Assembly: GCA_025463365.1 (NCBI GenBank)
Contig: JAOBWM010000155.1
Span: 1-64,000, forward strand
Length of the DNA: 64,000 nucleotides
Direction: 5' to 3'
DNA from: Acidimicrobiales bacterium
Lineage (GTDB): Bacteria; Actinomycetota; Acidimicrobiia; Acidimicrobiales; Iamiaceae
Positions 3,295 to 57,119 of the stretch are shown in pieces. Each line of letters starts with the position of its first letter. The stretch's first letter is position 1. The position numbers were made by a program, and so were the translations under genes. The notes under the pieces were generated by a model, which saw only the letters and a program-made list of their open reading frames with translations, was not told the DNA's origin and did not search any database.

Positions 3295-3362
3295 GCGGGT
3301 GGTCGCTGGGCGAGCGACGGTCTCCAAAACCGTCGGGCAGGGTTCGACTCCTTGCACCCGCT
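3295..3362 (+). tRNA. tRNA-like gene, anticodon CCA (Trp), with a very short D-arm
   Basis: Acceptor arms GCGGGTG and CACCCGC pair over seven perfect base pairs. The anticodon arm ACGGT/CTCCAAA/ACCGT presents CCA (Trp), and the T-arm CAGGG/TTCGACT/CCTTG has one G-U pair. The D-region is a tight hairpin (CGCT, five-base loop GGGCG, AGCG), with no room for the usual 7-11 base loop or for position 26, so the whole RNA is only 68 bases. The discriminator is T and the next bases are CCT, so CCA is not encoded, unlike the other tRNAs in the window. It may be a degenerate or specialised tRNA-Trp; the housekeeping tRNA-Trp is not in this window. Confidence 0.55.
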
Positions 3363-3393
3363 CCTCGTTCGCCGCGTCCGTCGTGGTGCCCGA

Positions 3394-3469
3394 GGCGTCG
3401 AAGCTCATGAGGACGAGCACCCGGTTGTCGACCGGGAGGCAGCGGGTTCGAGGCCCGTCGGCGCCGCCA
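3394..3469 (+). tRNA. tRNA-Asp (GTC)-like, CCA encoded
   Basis: A 76-base cloverleaf. The acceptor GGCGTCG pairs with CGGCGCC (one G-U), and the D-stem is GCTC/GAGC with loop ATGAGGAC. The anticodon arm CCCGG/TTGTCGA/CCGGG has anticodon GTC (Asp), the variable loop is AGGCA, and the T-arm is GCGGG/TTCGAGG/CCCGT. Discriminator G is followed by an encoded CCA. Position 8 is A where T is almost universal, and the arms differ from ordinary actinobacterial tRNA-Asp, so this may be an extra rather than the main Asp tRNA. It lies 31 bases after the Trp-like gene and 13 bases before tRNA-Cys. Confidence 0.8.
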
Positions 3470-3482
3470 CGACCCAACCCAA

Positions 3483-3557
3483 GCCTCCGTGGTCGAGTGG
3501 GAAGACGCCTGCCTGCAACGCAGGAGATCACCGGTTCGAATCCGGTCGGGGGCTCCA
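3483..3557 (+). tRNA. tRNA-Cys (GCA), CCA encoded
   Basis: A 75-base cloverleaf. The acceptor GCCTCCG pairs with CGGGGGC, and the D-stem has three pairs (GTC/GAC) around a nine-base loop with GGG. The anticodon arm CCTGC/CTGCAAC/GCAGG has anticodon GCA, and the T-arm is ACCGG/TTCGAAT/CCGGT. The T discriminator and CCA are encoded. It closes the three-tRNA array. On the opposite strand the array translates to the well-known spurious peptide string RIRTGDLL, which arises from tRNA genes and supports the RNA call. Confidence 0.93.
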
Positions 3558-5342: not shown

Positions 5343-5374
5343 CCGACCCCCGCGACCACCGCCCCGCCCTGCCC

Positions 5375-5495
5375 GACCCACGACCCGCGACTCCCGACTC
5401 GCGACCCGCGACCCGCGACTCCCGACTCGCGACTCCCGACTCGCGACTCGCGACTCGCGACTCGCGACTCGCGACCCGCGGCCCGCGGCCCGACC
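5375..5495. repeat. Simple repeat of CGACTCGCGACTCC-type units
   Basis: About 120 bases just after fdhD built from variants of GACTCGC and GACCCGC in tandem (7-14 base periodicity). Nothing else is recognisable. It leads directly into the 60-base repeat array and forms the first part of the 501-base gap between the two convergent genes. Confidence 0.75.
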
Positions 5496-5505
5496 CCACG
5501 CTCAG

Positions 5506-5805
5506 GTGTGTGCGCAGCAAGCTGCTGGGCGCGCAGGGGCGCGCACACGTCAGTCCTCGGGGTGGGTGTGTGCGTGGCGTGGTGGTGGGCGCGTCGGGGC
5601 GCGCACACGTCGGGTCCTCGGGGTGGGGTGTGTGCGTGGCGAGCTGCTGGGCGCGCCGGGCGCGCACACGTCGGCCCGGTCGGTCAGGGTGTGTGCGTGG
5701 CGTGGTGGTGGGCGCGCCGGGGCGCGCACACGTCTGGTCCTCGGGGTGGGGTGTGTGCGTGGCGTGGTGGTGGGCGCGTCGTGGCGCGCACACGTCGGGA
5801 CCCGC
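5506..5805. repeat. Array of five ~60-base units with GTGTGTGCG/CGCGCACAC inverted arms
   Basis: Five tandem units, each starting TGTGTGCGTGGC (the first TGTGCGCAGC). Each continues with a GTGGTGGGCGCG or GCTGCTGGGCGCG core and ends GGCGCGCACACGTC, with a linker of the type GGGTCCTCGGGGTGGGG. GTGTGCG at the 5' side and CGCACAC at the 3' side can pair, so each unit can form a hairpin. The array sits between the convergent ends of fdhD and the second ABC-F gene. Units 2 and 5 and units 2 and 4 are nearly identical. No frame with coding character runs through it. Confidence 0.85.
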
Positions 5806-7499: not shown

Positions 7500-7550
7500 G
7501 GACCCGACATCCTGCCCTCCCGTCCCGCCCCGCCGACCACCGATTCCCAT

Positions 7551-7844
7551 CTGAGCGCTCTGGGTCGCGTCGGTGCGAGGGTGGGCGCTCAGAACCGCCC
7601 GACTGGGTGGCGGGCTGGCGGGGCGACGTTTCTGAGCGCTGTGTGTCGCGTCGGTGCGACGGTGGGCGCTCAGAAGGGGGCAGCCGGCGGCGGTCGGGCT
7701 GGGCGGCGGGGCGTTGCTTCTGAGCGCTGTGGGTCGCGTCGGTGCGACGGTGGGCGCTCAGAACCGCCCGACTGGGTGGCGGGCTGGCGGGGCGACGTTT
7801 CTGAGCGCTCTGGGTCGCGTCGGTGCGACGGTGGGCGCTCAGAA
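7551..7844. repeat. Four copies of a ~44-base two-tier palindrome (locus A)
   Basis: Copies start near 7551, 7632, 7720 and 7801. Each has outer arms CTGAGCGC and GCGCTCAG, which extend to TTCTGAGCGC/GCGCTCAGAA in the best copies. Inside these are inner arms GTCGC and GCGAC around the loop GTCGGT. Linkers alternate between a 36-base type and a 42-base type, and the 36-base linker after copy 1 recurs after copy 3. The array therefore looks like a duplicated two-copy unit. The same palindrome recurs at 31235-31626. It lies between the divergent starts of an ABC-F gene and the molybdopterin oxidoreductase, in a 451-base gap with no other gene. The next 45 bases carry GGCGCTCGGC-type simple repeats. 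Confidence 0.9.
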
Positions 7845-7950
7845 GGGGGCAGCCTCCGGCGCTCGGCGCTCGGCGCTCGGCGCTTGGCGCTCGGCGGGGC
7901 GGGTTGGGCGCGCGAGGTGGTGGGGGCGACAGGCGGGTAGAACGGGAGCG

Positions 7951-10322: not shown

Positions 10323-11213
10323 TCAGGCAGCCGGCGCGAGTGCGGCCGCGAGCGCGCGCAGCAACAGGTCGCTCGACTCGACGAGGCGGAGCCACGGGTC
10401 GGACCGACTCGCGTCGGGTCGGCCCGCGCCCGTCCCGGAGCGGTCGCCCGGAGCGCGTCGGGACGGCGGGAGCTTCTGGGTGCCGTCGGGCGTGGCGCAA
10501 TCGGTGCCGTCGCTCACGACCGTGATGGCTCCCCACGGCAGTCCGCGCCAGGTCTCCTGCTTGGCGACCTCGGGGTAGCGGACGAGGTAGCCGGCCCGGC
10601 ACGCCATCAGCGGACCGGGATCGACCGCGGCGTCGAACAGCGTGCTGCGCTTCTCGAAGTGGAGGTGCGGTGCCGACGATGTCCCAGTCGAACCGACAAG
10701 GCCGATCACCGTGTTCTCGGTGACCCATGCCCCGCCGGCCGGGACGAGGACCTTCGAGAGGTGGCCGTAGAGCGTGGTCATGCCGTTGCCGTGGTCGACC
10801 TGGACCACGTTGCCGTAGCCGTTGCCGCCGGCCTTGCCGGAGAGGTCCACGGCCCAGCCCCGTCCGGCGGCGTAGACCGGGGTGCCTCGGGTGGCGATCA
10901 GGTCGAGGGCCCAGCGGTCGTGGTGCCCGGCGCACTCGTAGCCGAACTGTGAGCCGTGGGACTCGAACGTGCAGCCGACCTTCATCTCGCCGCCGTCGAG
11001 GTCGTGGCGCAATGGCAGCCACTGCGGCGGCCCCAGCTGGTCGGGTGAGGTCGGAACGGGCGTGGGCGGCGCGGGGGTCGCCGACCTTGCCGACGCCGCT
11101 CCGGCCGGACCGACGACGATCGAGAGGGCAGCGCAGGCGACCACGACGGCGAGCGCGGCTCGGAGCCGTCTTCCCCCTCCCTGGTCGGCCGCGCCGAGAG
11201 GCGGGACCGGCAT
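10323..11213 (-). CDS. Secreted M23-family metallopeptidase (LytM-like)
   Basis: A 296-residue protein with an N-terminal hydrophobic signal segment (about residues 16-41, ending GPAGAASA). The M23 core has GHHDRWALDL with RGTPVYAAG (first zinc ligands His and Asp), LYGHLSKV (catalytic-region His), and HLHFE (HXH pair). Such enzymes cut peptidoglycan cross-links or act as non-catalytic EnvC-like activators; here the metal residues appear present. The His-to-Asp spacing in the first motif is longer than the usual HXXXD, a variant seen in some actinobacterial members. The C-terminal 60 residues are low-complexity and charged. It is convergent with the molybdenum enzyme and divergent from the orphan operon at 11388. 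Confidence 0.9.
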   Translation of the reverse strand: MPVPPLGAADQGGGRRLRAALAVVVACAALSIVVGPAGAASARSATPAPPTPVPTSPDQLGPPQWLPLRHDLDGGEMKVGCTFESHGSQFGYECAGHHDRWALDLIATRGTPVYAAGRGWAVDLSGKAGGNGYGNVVQVDHGNGMTTLYGHLSKVLVPAGGAWVTENTVIGLVGSTGTSSAPHLHFEKRSTLFDAAVDPGPLMACRAGYLVRYPEVAKQETWRGLPWGAITVVSDGTDCATPDGTQKLPPSRRAPGDRSGTGAGRPDASRSDPWLRLVESSDLLLRALAAALAPAA

Positions 11214-17890: not shown

Positions 17891-17935
17891 ACGCAGCTGG
17901 TAGAGGTCGTCGACAACCCGGACGTTGTCGACGGT

Positions 17936-18033
17936 TGCGCACTCCGGTGCGTCGCAGGGGAAGTCGGTGCAAGTCCGACGCTGACCCGCAGCTGTAACCG
18001 ATCTTCGGATCGGGAGCCAGGTGACCTGCCTCC
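17936..18033 (+). promoter_or_regulatory. Cobalamin (B12) riboswitch
   Basis: The core is readable in order: GCAGGGGAAGTCGGTGCAAG, the paired TCCGACGCTGACCCGCAG, CTGTAACCG, the small hairpin GATCTTCGGATC, and the B12 box AGCCAGGTGACCTGCC at 18015-18030. The box matches the family consensus AGYCMGGNGACCKGCC. It is on the plus strand, about 95 bases before the start of the intrinsic-factor-like gene. When AdoCbl or another cobalamin is bound, such elements repress expression. A strong two-part hairpin follows (GGCCCGG 18052-18058 with CCGGGCC 18088-18094, and inner GTCCCGC/GCGGGAC), which may be part of the expression platform. Confidence 0.93.
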
Positions 18034-18114
18034 TCCCCGGGACACCCTCGTGGCCCGGCCATCTTCGTCCCGCTTGGCGGGACACGACCGGGCCCTCGAG
18101 GTGAGGGGCCCAAT

Positions 18115-23437: not shown

Positions 23438-24160
23438 ATGTCCGAGGATCCGACGGATCGCCTTCCCGACCGGGCCGCCGCATCCCGCACCCGTACGGCC
23501 ACCGACGTGTGGGATCGCCCGGTCGGTGCCTATGACCTCCACTGGATGGCCGAGGCACTGGCGATGGCCGAGCATGGCCTGTCCGCCGGCGAGCTGCCGA
23601 TCGGTGCCGTCGTGGTCGCCGGCGGGAAGGTCGCGGGGCGAGCGTTCACCCAGGAGCGGACGCAAGGCCGGTTGCTCGTCCACGCCGAGCTGCTGGCCCT
23701 CGACCAGGCCGACCGCACCCATGCCGTGACCCGCGTCGGGACGGTGCTCTACACGACGCTCGAGCCGTGCCTCATGTGCCTCGGTGCCGCCGCCGCGGCG
23801 ATGGTCGATCGCGTGGTCTTCGCCTTGTCGTCCCCGGGTGACGGCGCAGGTGACCTGGCGCGCCTGTGGGACGACCGCCGGCGCGCCGACGACATCGCCC
23901 ACGTCCGCCTTCCGCCGGTGACCGGCGGCGTCGGCGCCGACGCCTCGCGCGACCTCTTCCGCCGGTTCCGCGACGCACGCCCGGCCTCCGGCGACCCGCT
24001 GGCCGCGTGGGCCGAGAGCCTCTTGGCCGATCCACCGCACACGGTGGCCGACGGCGTGGCCGCGTTCGAGGACGCGCCCGACCCTGAGCCTGAGCCCGAG
24101 TCCGAGTCCGAGTCCGAGCCCGCGCCCGCGCCCGCGCCCGCGCCCGAGCCCGAGCGGTGA
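23438..24160 (+). CDS. Nucleoside/tRNA-adenosine deaminase-like zinc enzyme with Pro-Glu-rich tail
   Basis: A 240-residue member of the CDA/TadA deaminase superfamily. Zinc and catalytic residues are HAELLAL (His 82, Glu 84) and PCLMC (Cys 111, Cys 114). GELPIGAVVVAGGKV is the expected first strand pair. The family core is about 150 residues. Here the C-terminus is extended by a segment that includes a run of about 30 residues of Glu/Pro, Ser/Glu and Ala/Pro pairs encoded by a GAG-CCC/TCC slippage repeat. ATG 23438 is chosen because the deaminase fold starts soon after. The stop overlaps the next gene's GTG. Whether it edits tRNA or deaminates free bases is open. Confidence 0.88.
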   Translation: MSEDPTDRLPDRAAASRTRTATDVWDRPVGAYDLHWMAEALAMAEHGLSAGELPIGAVVVAGGKVAGRAFTQERTQGRLLVHAELLALDQADRTHAVTRVGTVLYTTLEPCLMCLGAAAAAMVDRVVFALSSPGDGAGDLARLWDDRRRADDIAHVRLPPVTGGVGADASRDLFRRFRDARPASGDPLAAWAESLLADPPHTVADGVAAFEDAPDPEPEPESESESEPAPAPAPAPEPER

Positions 24161-31228: not shown

Positions 31229-31234
31229 GTCGGT

Positions 31235-31626
31235 TCTGAGCGCCCGGTGTCGCGTGGGTGCGACGCGGAGCGCTCAGATCGGGTGGGTCGCTCGGGCTGG
31301 TTGGTTTTGAGCGCCCGGTGTCGCGTGGGTGCGACGCGGTGCGCTCAGATCGGGTGGGTCGCTCGGGCTGTCGGTTTGAGCGCTGGGTGTCGCGTGGGTG
31401 CGACGCGGAGCGCTCAGAACCGGTGGGGCTCGGGCTGTTGGTTTTGAACGCCCCCTGTCGCGTCGGTGCGACGCGGAGCGCTCAGAACCGGTGGGGCTCG
31501 GGTTGGTTGGTTTTGAGCGCTGGGTGTCGCGTGGGTGCGACGCGGAGCGCTCAGATCGGGTGGGTCGCTCGGGCTGGTTGGTTTTGAGCGCCTGGTGTCG
31601 CGTCGGTGCGACGCGGAGCGCTCAGA
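31235..31626. repeat. Six copies of the ~45-base two-tier palindrome (locus B)
   Basis: Copies begin near 31235, 31307, 31375, 31442, 31511 and 31582. Each has outer arms TTGAGCGC (or CTGAGCGC) and GCGCTCAGA, with inner arms GTCGC and GCGAC around GTGGGT or GTCGGT. Linkers of 22-28 bases are of two types (GGGTGGGTCGCTCGGGCTGG and CGGTGGGGCTCGGGCTG). The arms and the inner hairpin match locus A at 7551-7844, 24 kb away, while the linkers differ, so the palindrome is the conserved element. One copy has TTGAACGC, breaking the outer arm. It lies between the convergent ohr and aminotransferase genes. Confidence 0.9.
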
Positions 31627-31656
31627 ACCGGGTGGGAGGAGCTGGCTGGGGCGCGG

Positions 31657-33102
31657 TCAGGGGAGGGCGGCGGCGAGGCGGCGGGCTGCTTCGTCGAGGG
31701 CGTCCGGGTGGTTGGTCGCGTACGACAACCGCAGCCCCGTGCGGTGCTCGCCTGGGGTGACGGCGAACGCCGAGCCCGGCACGAAGGCCACGCCCTGACC
31801 GAGGGCGCGACCGAGCATCGCGGTCGTGTCGACCGGCGTCCCGGAGCGGTCGGGTCCGACGGTGGCCCAGAGGAACATGCCGCCGTCGGGGGACGAGAAC
31901 CGGATGCGGTCACCGAGGTGGCGGCGCAGGGCATCGGCCAGCGCCTCGGCCTGGCATCGGTAGGTGGCCCGCACCCGATCGAGGTGCCCGGCGAGGAAGC
32001 CCGGCTCGGCGAGCACTCGCAGTGCGATCTGCTGGTCGAGGGACCCGGTGTGGAGGTCGGCGCCCTGCTTGAGGGTGGTGCACGCCCGCCGGACCGGTGG
32101 TGGCGCGATGGCCCAGCCGACCCGGAGGCCCGGGCACAGGATCTTCGAGGTCGAGCCGAGCGTGATGGCCCGGTCGGTCATGGTTCGCAGGCCGGGCTGG
32201 GCTGAGCCAACCCACCGCAGGTCGCCGTAGGGGTCGTCGTCGATCAGCCAGAAGTCGTAGCGCTCGGCGAGCTCGGCAAGGGCGAGGCGTCGCTCGAGCG
32301 GGAGCGTCGTGCCCGTCGGGTTGTTGAAGTTCGCGACGACGTACACCAGGGCGGGCCGCAGGCCACCAGCCAACCGCCGGGCCAGCACGTCGACGCAGAG
32401 ACCTTCATCGTCCGACGGGATCCCCACCAGCTCGGCGCCCGCGGCGCGCAGCGCCTGGAGGGCACCGGGATACGCGGGGTCGGCGAGGGCCACCGCTTGG
32501 CCGGGCTCGACGAGCGACCGTGCGAGCAGGTCGAGCGCCTGCTGGGCGCCGCTCGTGATGATCACCTGGTCGACGTCAACATCGACATCGACATCGGGGT
32601 CGGGGTCGGCGAGGGCCACCGCTTGGCCGGGCTCGACGAGCGACCGTGCGAGCAGGTCGAGCGCCTGCTGGGCGCCGCTCGTGATGATCACCTGGTCGAC
32701 GTCGACATCGACATCGACATCGGCATCCACATCGACATGGGCATCCACATCGACATCGACATGAGCGACGACATCGACATCGGCATCGGCACCGGGACCA
32801 GCATCGGGACCGGCATCGGCATGGGCACCGACATCGGTGCGATGGCGCGCCGCCACCCACTCGCGCAGCGGTCGGTGGCCCTCGGTCGGCCCGTACTGGA
32901 GCGCAGCGGGTCCGGACTCGGCCAGCGCGGCGGCGGTGGCCCTCGCGATGGCTGCGATCGGGAAGCACTCGGGGTTCGGCAGCCCGCCTGCCAGGGAGAT
33001 CAGCTCGGGCCGTTCGGTGAGCTCGAGCAGGTCGCGGATCGCCGACGACCCGGCCCGGCGGACCGCAGCCGACGGCTGCCAGGGGGTGAGGGACTTGACC
33101 AT
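31657..33102 (-). CDS. PLP-dependent aminotransferase (fold type I, aminoadipate-transaminase-like) with internal duplication
   Basis: A 481-residue class I/II aminotransferase; relatives have about 400 residues. Normal blocks are LISLAGGLPNPECFP, LQYGPTEGHRPLREW, NFNNPTGTTL, the PLP-binding Asp in DDDPYGDLRW, and Lys in TLGSTSKILCPG. Two insertions stand out. Residues about 92-130 are an Asp-Val/Ala-His-rich tract coded by GATGTC-type repeats. Residues about 126-209 are two tandem copies of a 42-residue segment containing QVIITSGAQQALDLLARSL and EPGQAVALADP, the phosphate-binding region. All is in frame. Whether the product folds is doubtful. It is divergent from a MocR regulator with only 27 bases between starts. 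Confidence 0.88.
   Translation of the reverse strand: MVKSLTPWQPSAAVRRAGSSAIRDLLELTERPELISLAGGLPNPECFPIAAIARATAAALAESGPAALQYGPTEGHRPLREWVAARHRTDVGAHADAGPDAGPGADADVDVVAHVDVDVDAHVDVDADVDVDVDVDQVIITSGAQQALDLLARSLVEPGQAVALADPDPDVDVDVDVDQVIITSGAQQALDLLARSLVEPGQAVALADPAYPGALQALRAAGAELVGIPSDDEGLCVDVLARRLAGGLRPALVYVVANFNNPTGTTLPLERRLALAELAERYDFWLIDDDPYGDLRWVGSAQPGLRTMTDRAITLGSTSKILCPGLRVGWAIAPPPVRRACTTLKQGADLHTGSLDQQIALRVLAEPGFLAGHLDRVRATYRCQAEALADALRRHLGDRIRFSSPDGGMFLWATVGPDRSGTPVDTTAMLGRALGQGVAFVPGSAFAVTPGEHRTGLRLSYATNHPDALDEAARRLAAALP
32476..32727. repeat. In-frame 126-base tandem duplication inside the aminotransferase gene
   Basis: Positions 32476-32601 and 32602-32727 are nearly identical (about three differences in 126 bases, all near the repeat-rich end). 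The duplicated stretch ends in the hexanucleotide tract GACATC repeated to about 32780. Near identity indicates a recent event, and the GACATC/GGGGTC sequences at its edges suggest slippage or unequal recombination. It duplicates 42 codons without a frameshift. Confidence 0.92.
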
Positions 33103-33129: not shown

Positions 33130-34617
33130 ATGGATGACAGGGCCACTTCGGCCAGAGTGGCCCGAACCGAGGGCGTGGCCCGACTGGTGGCAGACCTCGG
33201 GTCGTGGTCGGCCGGCCCGGGCTCCCTCTACCGCCAGCTCGCTCGTGCCATCGCAGCCGCGGTCGAGCGGGGTGATCTCGAGCGAGGGCGCCGCCTGCCA
33301 TCGGAACGGGCGCTGGCGGTCGCGGTGGCCGTGAGCCGGGGCGTGGTCGTGGCGGCCTACGACCAGCTGGTGGCCGACGAGGTGGTCGACCGCCGGCAGG
33401 GGAGCGGCACGTTCGTGGCTGGTTCGCCCGATGTCGGGCTGCCGCCGAGGCGCGAGGGCTCGGCCCTCGTCGCCCGCTACGTGGGCCCGGCCGCGCCGGT
33501 GCCGCAGCCGGTCGCTCATCGCCTCATCGACCTGTCGATCTCGGTGCTCCGCGACCCCACCGGCCTCCCGGACGCGAGCGTGGGCGCGACCGAGCTGGTC
33601 GACCTGGCCGAGGGCGCGGGAGGCACGGCGTGGGGGCTTCCCGGCCTGCGTCGCCTCGTCGCCCGGCAGCTCACCGAGCGCGGCCTTCCGACCGAACCCG
33701 AGCAGGTACTGCTGACCACGGGCGCCCAGCAGGCGATCGCCCTCGCGGCGGCCTGTTGGGTCCGGCCCGGCGACGCCGTGGTGATCGACGACCCGACCTA
33801 TCCCGGTGCCCCGGCCGCGTTCGGTGCCGCCGGCGCCGTCCTGCGTCCCGTGCCGGTGGATCGCGACGGCGTGGTGATGGCCGCGCTGCGCGCCGCACTG
33901 GCGGCGCACCCGACGCTCGCCTACCTCCAGTCGGGGCCGCACAGCCCGACCGGCACCCTGCTCTCGGCCTACCGGCGTCGCGAGGTCGCGAAGCTCGTGG
34001 TCGAGCACCGCGTCCCGCTCGTGGAGGATCTCGCCCTCGACGGATTGCGCTGGGGCGCGCCATCGGATCGCCGGCGAGGCGAGCTCCCGCTGGTGGCGTC
34101 CCACGCTCCCGATCACGCCGTGGTCGTGGTCGGTTCGTTCAGCAAGCTGTTCTGGGCCGGGTTGCGCGTGGGGTTCGCCCGCGCGCCGGACGCGGTGGTC
34201 GGCCGCCTGGCCCGCGTGAAGGCGACGCACGACCTCGGGTCGTCACTCGTGGCGCAGGCGTTGGCGCTGCGTCTCCTCGAGCGGAGCGACCACGCCGAGT
34301 TCGTGGCCGACCGCAACGCGACGCTGGCCCGCCGAGCGTCGCTGCTCGTCGACCTGCTGGCCGAGCACCTGCCGACCTGGCACGTCAGCAGGCCGACCGG
34401 CGGGTTGTCGCTATGGGTCGCCCTCCCGGCGCCCACGGCGCACGCCTTCGCTGCGGCCGCCCTCCAGCGAGGCGTCGCGGTGGCCACCGCGGAGGGGCTC
34501 TCGGCCGCCCCTGGCGCACACGCCGGCCGGCTGAGGCTCACCTTCGCCGTCCCCGACGCGGACCTGCGTGAGGCCGTGCACCGCCTCGCCGCCGCCTGGG
34601 CCGACGTCGACCGATAG
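33130..34617 (+). CDS. MocR/PdxR-type regulator: GntR helix-turn-helix fused to aminotransferase
   Basis: Up to 495 residues. The N-terminal GntR winged helix (SLYRQLARAIAAAVERGDLE, RRLPSERALAVAVAVSRG, GSGTFVAG) is joined to a fold type I aminotransferase-like domain. LTTGAQQAIALAAAC, GPHSPTGTLLSAYRRREV, EDLALDGLRWG and the PLP-Lys block GSFSKLFWAGLRVGF are all present, so PLP binding is likely. MocR proteins sense PLP or an amino-acid derivative. The divergent aminotransferase is the presumed target. ATG 33130 is given, but GTG 33157 or 33175 would leave space for an operator and leader and may be the true start. Confidence 0.9.
   Translation: MDDRATSARVARTEGVARLVADLGSWSAGPGSLYRQLARAIAAAVERGDLERGRRLPSERALAVAVAVSRGVVVAAYDQLVADEVVDRRQGSGTFVAGSPDVGLPPRREGSALVARYVGPAAPVPQPVAHRLIDLSISVLRDPTGLPDASVGATELVDLAEGAGGTAWGLPGLRRLVARQLTERGLPTEPEQVLLTTGAQQAIALAAACWVRPGDAVVIDDPTYPGAPAAFGAAGAVLRPVPVDRDGVVMAALRAALAAHPTLAYLQSGPHSPTGTLLSAYRRREVAKLVVEHRVPLVEDLALDGLRWGAPSDRRRGELPLVASHAPDHAVVVVGSFSKLFWAGLRVGFARAPDAVVGRLARVKATHDLGSSLVAQALALRLLERSDHAEFVADRNATLARRASLLVDLLAEHLPTWHVSRPTGGLSLWVALPAPTAHAFAAAALQRGVAVATAEGLSAAPGAHAGRLRLTFAVPDADLREAVHRLAAAWADVDR
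33140..33163 (+). promoter_or_regulatory. Inverted repeat overlapping the MocR start, candidate operator
   Basis: GGGCCACT at 33140-33147 and AGTGGCCC at 33156-33163 form a perfect 8-base inverted repeat with an 8-base spacer. A further AAGTGG half-site lies at 33121. It lies between the divergent aminotransferase and MocR starts, or inside the MocR frame if the 33130 ATG is used. If translation starts at GTG 33157 or GTG 33175 instead, the repeat falls at the start of the gene. MocR regulators commonly bind such sites in shared intergenic regions. Confidence 0.5.
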
Positions 34618-34629
34618 CTCAAAACCGGT

Positions 34630-34775
34630 AGGACGCCCGACGCCCGACGCCCGACGCCCGACGCCCGACGCCCGACGGTCCCGACGCTCCCGACGCTCCC
34701 GACGCTCCCGACGCCCGACGTCCCCGACGCCCGGCGCCCGACGGTCCCGACGGTCCCGACGCCCCCGACGCCCCG
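34630..34775. repeat. GACGCCC / GACGCTCCC simple repeats between convergent genes
   Basis: The 160-base space between the MocR gene and the convergent desaturase-like gene consists almost wholly of GACGCCC, GACGGTCCC and GACGCTCCC units. No terminator hairpin or coding frame is seen. It is one of several slippage-type tracts placed at convergent gene ends in this window. Confidence 0.8.
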
Positions 34776-34777
34776 AC

Positions 34778-57043: not shown

Positions 57044-57119
57044 TGGTGGGCCACCAGGGACTCGAACCCTGAACCAACGGGTTAAAAGCCCGGAGCTCTG
57101 CCAATTGAGCTAGTGGCCC
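57044..57119 (-). tRNA. tRNA-Lys (TTT), CCA encoded
   Basis: A standard 76-base cloverleaf read on the minus strand. The acceptor GGGCCAC pairs with GTGGCCC, the D-arm is AGCTC...GAGCT with GG in the loop, and the anticodon arm CCGGG/CTTTTAA/CCCGT has anticodon TTT. The T-arm is CAGGG/TTCGAGT/CCCTG. The A discriminator and CCA are encoded. It has none of the oddities of the array at 3295-3557. Confidence 0.97.

Follow-up and report, generated by a model that had tools for sequence, protein, structure and literature searches.

A hexanucleotide repeat tract and an in-frame 126-bp tandem duplication in a LysN/KAT-II-type aminotransferase gene of an Acidimicrobiales bacterium

Introduction

How does a gene for a metabolic enzyme come to encode its cofactor-phosphate-binding unit twice, and what does this mean for the enzyme? 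The question is raised by a gene in a stretch of 64,000 nucleotides from an uncultured Acidimicrobiales bacterium of the family Iamiaceae, referred to here as the window. An earlier note, made from the sequence of this stretch, had described an aminotransferase enlarged from about 400 to 481 amino acids by a recent tandem duplication and a hexanucleotide expansion; it had taken the intact reading frame as a sign of selection or of a very recent event and had proposed that the gene might be a contingency locus.

The aminotransferase and its neighbour

The gene, the codon of its conserved lysine and a divergently oriented neighbour are located in the window as follows:

31657-33102, minus strand: aminotransferase gene (ORF), LysN/KAT-II type, 481 amino acids
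32143-32145, minus strand: codon of Lys320 (SKILCPG), an invariant column of the family alignment
33130-34617, plus strand: MocR-type regulator gene (GntR and aminotransferase domains)

The product of the ORF is a fold-type-I aminotransferase of the LysN/kynurenine-aminotransferase-II (KAT-II) type, which agrees with the earlier annotation as an aminotransferase. The 481-amino-acid protein contains the Pfam domain Aminotran_1_2 (PF00155), its closest solved structures by sequence are a Pyrococcus KAT-II homologue, MsAT and LysN (phmmer; 1x0m, E=2.4e-74), and the best PDB match of its predicted model is LysN (Foldseek; 2zyj, TMt 0.91). With the LysN/KAT-II family (2zyj, 2egy, 1x0m, 3aov, 1wst), it shares the fold, the conserved residues, the N-terminal motif SSxIRxLL and the position of Lys320, which we take to be the conserved Schiff-base lysine. 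The catalytic and cofactor-binding residues Asn261, Asp289, Tyr292, Lys320, Arg327 and Arg458 all fall into invariant columns. A homologue of the MocR-type gene adjoins the aminotransferase orthologue in three genus mates (G005, G008 and G010), and the MocR-type protein is likely to be the regulator of the enzyme gene.

Layout of the duplication and the hexamer tract

The gene carries a tandem duplication and, next to it, a degenerate repeat tract:

32601-32726, minus strand: duplication copy nearer the N-terminus, TSGAQQ at 32665-32682, predicted to be disordered and extruded
32475-32600, minus strand: duplication copy nearer the C-terminus, TSGAQQ at 32539-32556, predicted to lie in the native fold
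32695-32835, minus strand: degenerate tract of GATGTC/GATGCC hexamers coding Asp-Val/Asp-Ala (codons 90-136)

The two copies abut and are identical at 123 of 126 positions; the differences, at 32578 and 32598-32599, all lie inside the hexamer part, and the longest identical run comprises 103 consecutive bases. TRF reports a period of 126 bp with 2.0 copies, 99% matches and a score of 491 at 32475-32723. For the hexamers it gives an array at 32696-32837 with periods of 6, 12 and 18. Neither array is a chance match. The divergence of the copies is below roughly 3%, unless gene conversion has homogenised them. Thus, the in-frame 126-base duplication with near-identical copies described earlier is real, and the absence of any difference over 103 bp bears out that it is recent.

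The tract consists of 47 codons, chiefly GAT in alternation with GTC or GCC, and its end nearest the duplication is perfect, while the end nearest the N-terminus is decayed. Further hexamers occupy codons 168-178, in the interval that separates the two TSGAQQ motifs. The earlier estimate of about 40 codons recognised the tract correctly and was slightly low as to its length. The placement of both changes in the active-site region holds in part: the PLP-phosphate-binding motif TSGAQQ is found in the duplicated unit only, whereas the tract lies in a surface loop ahead of the first strand of the large domain.

Comparison with relatives and probable origin of the tract

In an alignment with 50 relatives, the loop between residues 84 and 180 of the window protein comprises 96 residues, compared to 9-19 residues in the relatives. 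The tract and the duplicate were searched for in these 50 proteins and in the genus orthologues, and neither was present; the relatives thus lack both insertions, a comparison for which the earlier note had called. In the orthologues of the genus mates G005, G008 and G010 (60-62% identity, the nearest 62%), the two flanks are adjacent. The idea that the tract is common to the genus was therefore rejected. In the loop of G010, a few extra Asp and Gly residues are found at the same place, coded mostly by GAC and GGC. The genus orthologues have 392-403 amino acids, which supports the proposed enlargement from about 400 to 481.

The codon usage of the tract differs from that of its host gene. Asp is encoded by 14 GAT and 2 GAC codons in the tract and by 3 GAT and 19 GAC codons in the rest of the gene (Fisher p=7e-6), and GC3 is 0.51 in the tract compared to 0.91 elsewhere in the gene. 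The inverted Asp codon usage and the low GC3 argue that the repeat expanded as DNA and was not shaped by codon selection. The tract thus combines the traits of a slippage-born coding repeat: short tandem units, absence from orthologues, codons unlike those of the host and further occurrences of the repeat class in the genome.

It is probable that an ordinary LysN/KAT-II-type gene acquired its long loop by GATGYC slippage, followed by the 126-bp duplication, and that both reflect a species-level tendency which the enzyme tolerates in a nearly neutral manner. In the first step, the hexanucleotide would have grown by slipped-strand mispairing in the permissive loop that joins helix 77-95 to the large domain's first strand. 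The adjacent 126 bp, including the strand-helix unit that binds the PLP phosphate, would then have been duplicated by renewed slippage or by unequal exchange between the tract and a GCCGAC site immediately 3' to the phosphate-binding unit. We infer this mechanism and the order of its steps. The underlying cause would be the tendency of the species to expand such repeats, and the insert of the enzyme is most simply regarded as tolerated.

Predicted fold and state of the enzyme

The AlphaFold2 model of the protein has a mean pLDDT of 85 and a pTM of 0.82, and only residues 1-3 and 103-171 score below 50. It places the second, C-terminal copy in the fold and leaves the tract and the first copy disordered; since the alignment behind the model covers the C-terminal copy only and no relative covers the first copy, the choice of copy by the model is not an independent test. 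According to the model, the C-terminal copy would most likely take up the native position in the folded product, while the N-terminal copy and the tract would form a disordered surface loop. If the N-terminal copy were the one in the fold, the AYPG segment would be immediately preceded by 42 additional residues, an arrangement that seems harder to tolerate. Compared to the LysN/KAT-II family, the protein differs in its enlarged loop, in an extra phosphate-binding strand-helix and in the motif GAQQ instead of GSQQ.

The duplicated cofactor-binding unit and the insert might also have inactivated the enzyme, with the ORF still open only because the event is recent, and the protein may have lost part or all of its activity. 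The 103 identical base pairs leave little time for decay, the tract offers no single-substitution stops, and both copies carry Ala where relatives have Ser in the phosphate-binding motif (Ala186). However, in the register of the C-terminal copy none of the 48 invariant columns of the family alignment is altered, and 63 of the 64 strongly conserved columns are kept, S186A being the sole exception. GAQQ is also found in the neighbouring MocR protein, and the exchange of Ser for Ala need therefore not be fatal to the 481-amino-acid enzyme. In addition, since part of the tract is older and decayed, the frame must have been kept well before the duplication. The conserved residues elsewhere in the protein testify to past constraint and say nothing of constraint after the duplication. 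A pseudogene in the making is therefore an unlikely explanation.

Reading frame and repeat instability

The repeat unit has 6 bp and the duplication 126 bp, i.e., 21 x 6, so that gain or loss of such units always leaves the frame intact. Codon arithmetic further shows that from GAT, GTC, GCC and GGT no stop codon can be reached by one substitution. An intact frame is therefore expected for some time even without selection, and frame retention was rejected as evidence of selection, contrary to the earlier reading.

Perfect hexamers and a nearly exact 126-bp tandem duplicate are unstable by nature, and the enzyme might be switched or tuned within the population by changes of repeat number or by reversible deletion and re-duplication of the 126-bp copy. 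Precedents exist in two systems. Spontaneous tandem duplications inside ORFs were described for pneumococcal capsule genes (Waite et al. 2001, 2003, cited in PMC4022640); they resemble the present one in being direct tandem duplications within an ORF. As cited there, they lead to loss of expression and phase variation, whereas the aminotransferase gene keeps its frame, and switching is not among its observed features. In mutL, conversion between alleles of a 6-bp repeat was attributed to slipped-strand mispairing (PMC2955026). Here too a hexanucleotide repeat lies inside an enzyme gene; however, mutL has three copies with observed functional and defective states, and the aminotransferase carries a long, mostly decayed tract, seen in one genome. 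Against a contingency function stand the frame-neutral units, which allow no on/off switch by frame, the metabolic rather than surface-structural role of the gene, the imperfect state of most of the tract and the presence of the same repeat class in unrelated genes. A contingency locus is thus improbable, and a contingency mechanism special to this gene, as proposed earlier, does not fit hexamer steps that cannot toggle the frame and similar inserts in other genes.

Assembly of the locus

The source genome is a draft of 219 contigs. A comparison of 57 contig ends revealed three pairs with an overlap of exactly 127 bp, including the pair that links C183, the contig of the window, with C10; this indicates a de Bruijn assembly at k=127. 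This exceeds the longest shared run of 103 bp, so that the assembly graph separates the two copies; as multi-k assemblers carry contigs forward, the argument is strong evidence rather than proof. Repeated 104-mers were searched for around the gene, and none occurs twice. An assembler-made second copy or tract length, for which the draft state and the known role of tandem repeats in assembly errors (PMC6868369) could be cited, is very improbable given this k-mer signature, the bases that distinguish the copies and the fact that such errors mostly collapse repeats (PMC6868369) rather than invent a copy; the duplication is probably genuine.

The same repeat elsewhere in the genome

In this genome, the motif (GRTGYC)x3 is matched 30 times and its reversed control 3 times; each of eleven genus mates has 0-9 matches to the motif. 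As matches overlap within arrays, the 30 correspond to about 15 separate places. At least two other genes carry a comparable insert, Asp-rich and in frame:

C161, 9750-11462 (L188, G000:C161): membrane-protein-like ORF with an Asp-Ala repeat insert at 10767-10853
C134, start of the contig (L187, G000:C134): acyl-CoA-synthetase-like ORF with an Asp/Ala/Pro-rich in-frame insert at about 828-1154

At a place that measures 6-15 bp in G005 and G010, the C161 ORF encodes about 50 additional residues; they contain GADADADADADREADADREADVDADVDAG and include a short internal duplication, ADREAD. The C134 ORF has about 110 extra residues, and most genus mates have a few bases between the corresponding flanks; its insert is hexameric in part only and may have another origin. 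Both inserts are missing from every genus orthologue found, and the Asp codons are GAT-biased in both. Short duplications adjoin hexamer tracts at C83 and C161 too. The parallel inserts argue for a process that is not peculiar to the aminotransferase.

Tandem arrays are denser in this genome (37 per Mb) than in three genus mates (10 per Mb; p=0.04), a difference that rests on small numbers (9 versus 4) and on contigs taken by number, with a smaller gap than for contigs found through their repeats. G020, from another genus of the same family, has 41.7 arrays per Mb and is as high as this genome. The small array counts, the value of G020 and the partly hexameric C134 insert are the points that speak against a species-level tendency as the cause.

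Loss of a mismatch-repair gene was considered as a cause and rejected: NucS is present in this genome, and MutS is missing from every one of the 12 genus genomes searched, which gives no account of a species-specific excess. A literature search for hexanucleotide repeats in bacterial genomes and for tandem repeats in Ilumatobacter returned nothing.

Palindrome arrays and other elements of the window

Apart from the hexamers, palindromes of the form TGAGCGC-N-GTCGCRTNGGTGCGACG-N-GCGCTCA occur in tandem arrays with a period of about 70-90 bp at 31229-31636 and 7550-7875 of the window. This palindrome has 59 matches in the genome and none in 11 genus mates; one unit folds as a double-stem hairpin (z=-5.95), a comparison with Rfam gave no match, and one of the arrays stops 20 bp from the aminotransferase stop codon. 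A second family (GTGTGTGCG...GGTGGTGGGCGCG...GCGCACAC) forms an array at window 5505-5798 and has 31 matches compared to none in the 11 genus mates. A possible third family (TTCTTGTGTG...CGTCG...GCACACAAGAA) forms tandem arrays outside the window, at L195 17741-17858 and L188 13335-13668. Further elements of the window are:

3295-3554: three clustered tRNA genes
5374-5487: CGACTCG array, 14 units
17914-18047, plus strand: cobalamin riboswitch aptamer
24076-24155: GCCCGA array, 13 units
34632-34777: GACGCCC array, 17 units, beginning just past the MocR gene
57047-57119: one further tRNA gene

Implications

The aminotransferase adds to the known cases in which repeats have altered a coding sequence; duplications inside ORFs, 6-bp repeats and slippage-born regions are already established. 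Prokaryotic low-complexity regions can arise by slippage, and a survey of them stresses conserved regions (PMC6821194); the tract shares their biased composition but is absent from all relatives found. For in-frame repeats of this kind, controls of codon usage and across the genome are needed before a contingency locus or selection is called.

More interesting than the single gene is the apparent species-wide repeat habit, which is also seen in two palindrome families. The locus offers a clean and recent case of an enzyme gene that combines two copies of a cofactor-phosphate-binding strand-helix unit with a large loop born of repeats. The sibling inserts, at least two in the genome and none in the relatives, make slippage-driven loop growth in bacterial enzymes testable, namely which of the inserts are tolerated or persist and at what rate they change. 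Only tentatively can it be suggested that GATGYC growth is ongoing throughout the genome of this species, in loops that belong to conserved enzymes, and captures duplications of adjoining sequence, and that a working enzyme here carries a second, redundant cofactor-binding unit. If so, the species would represent a natural experiment in the origin of new protein loops and duplicated structural units.
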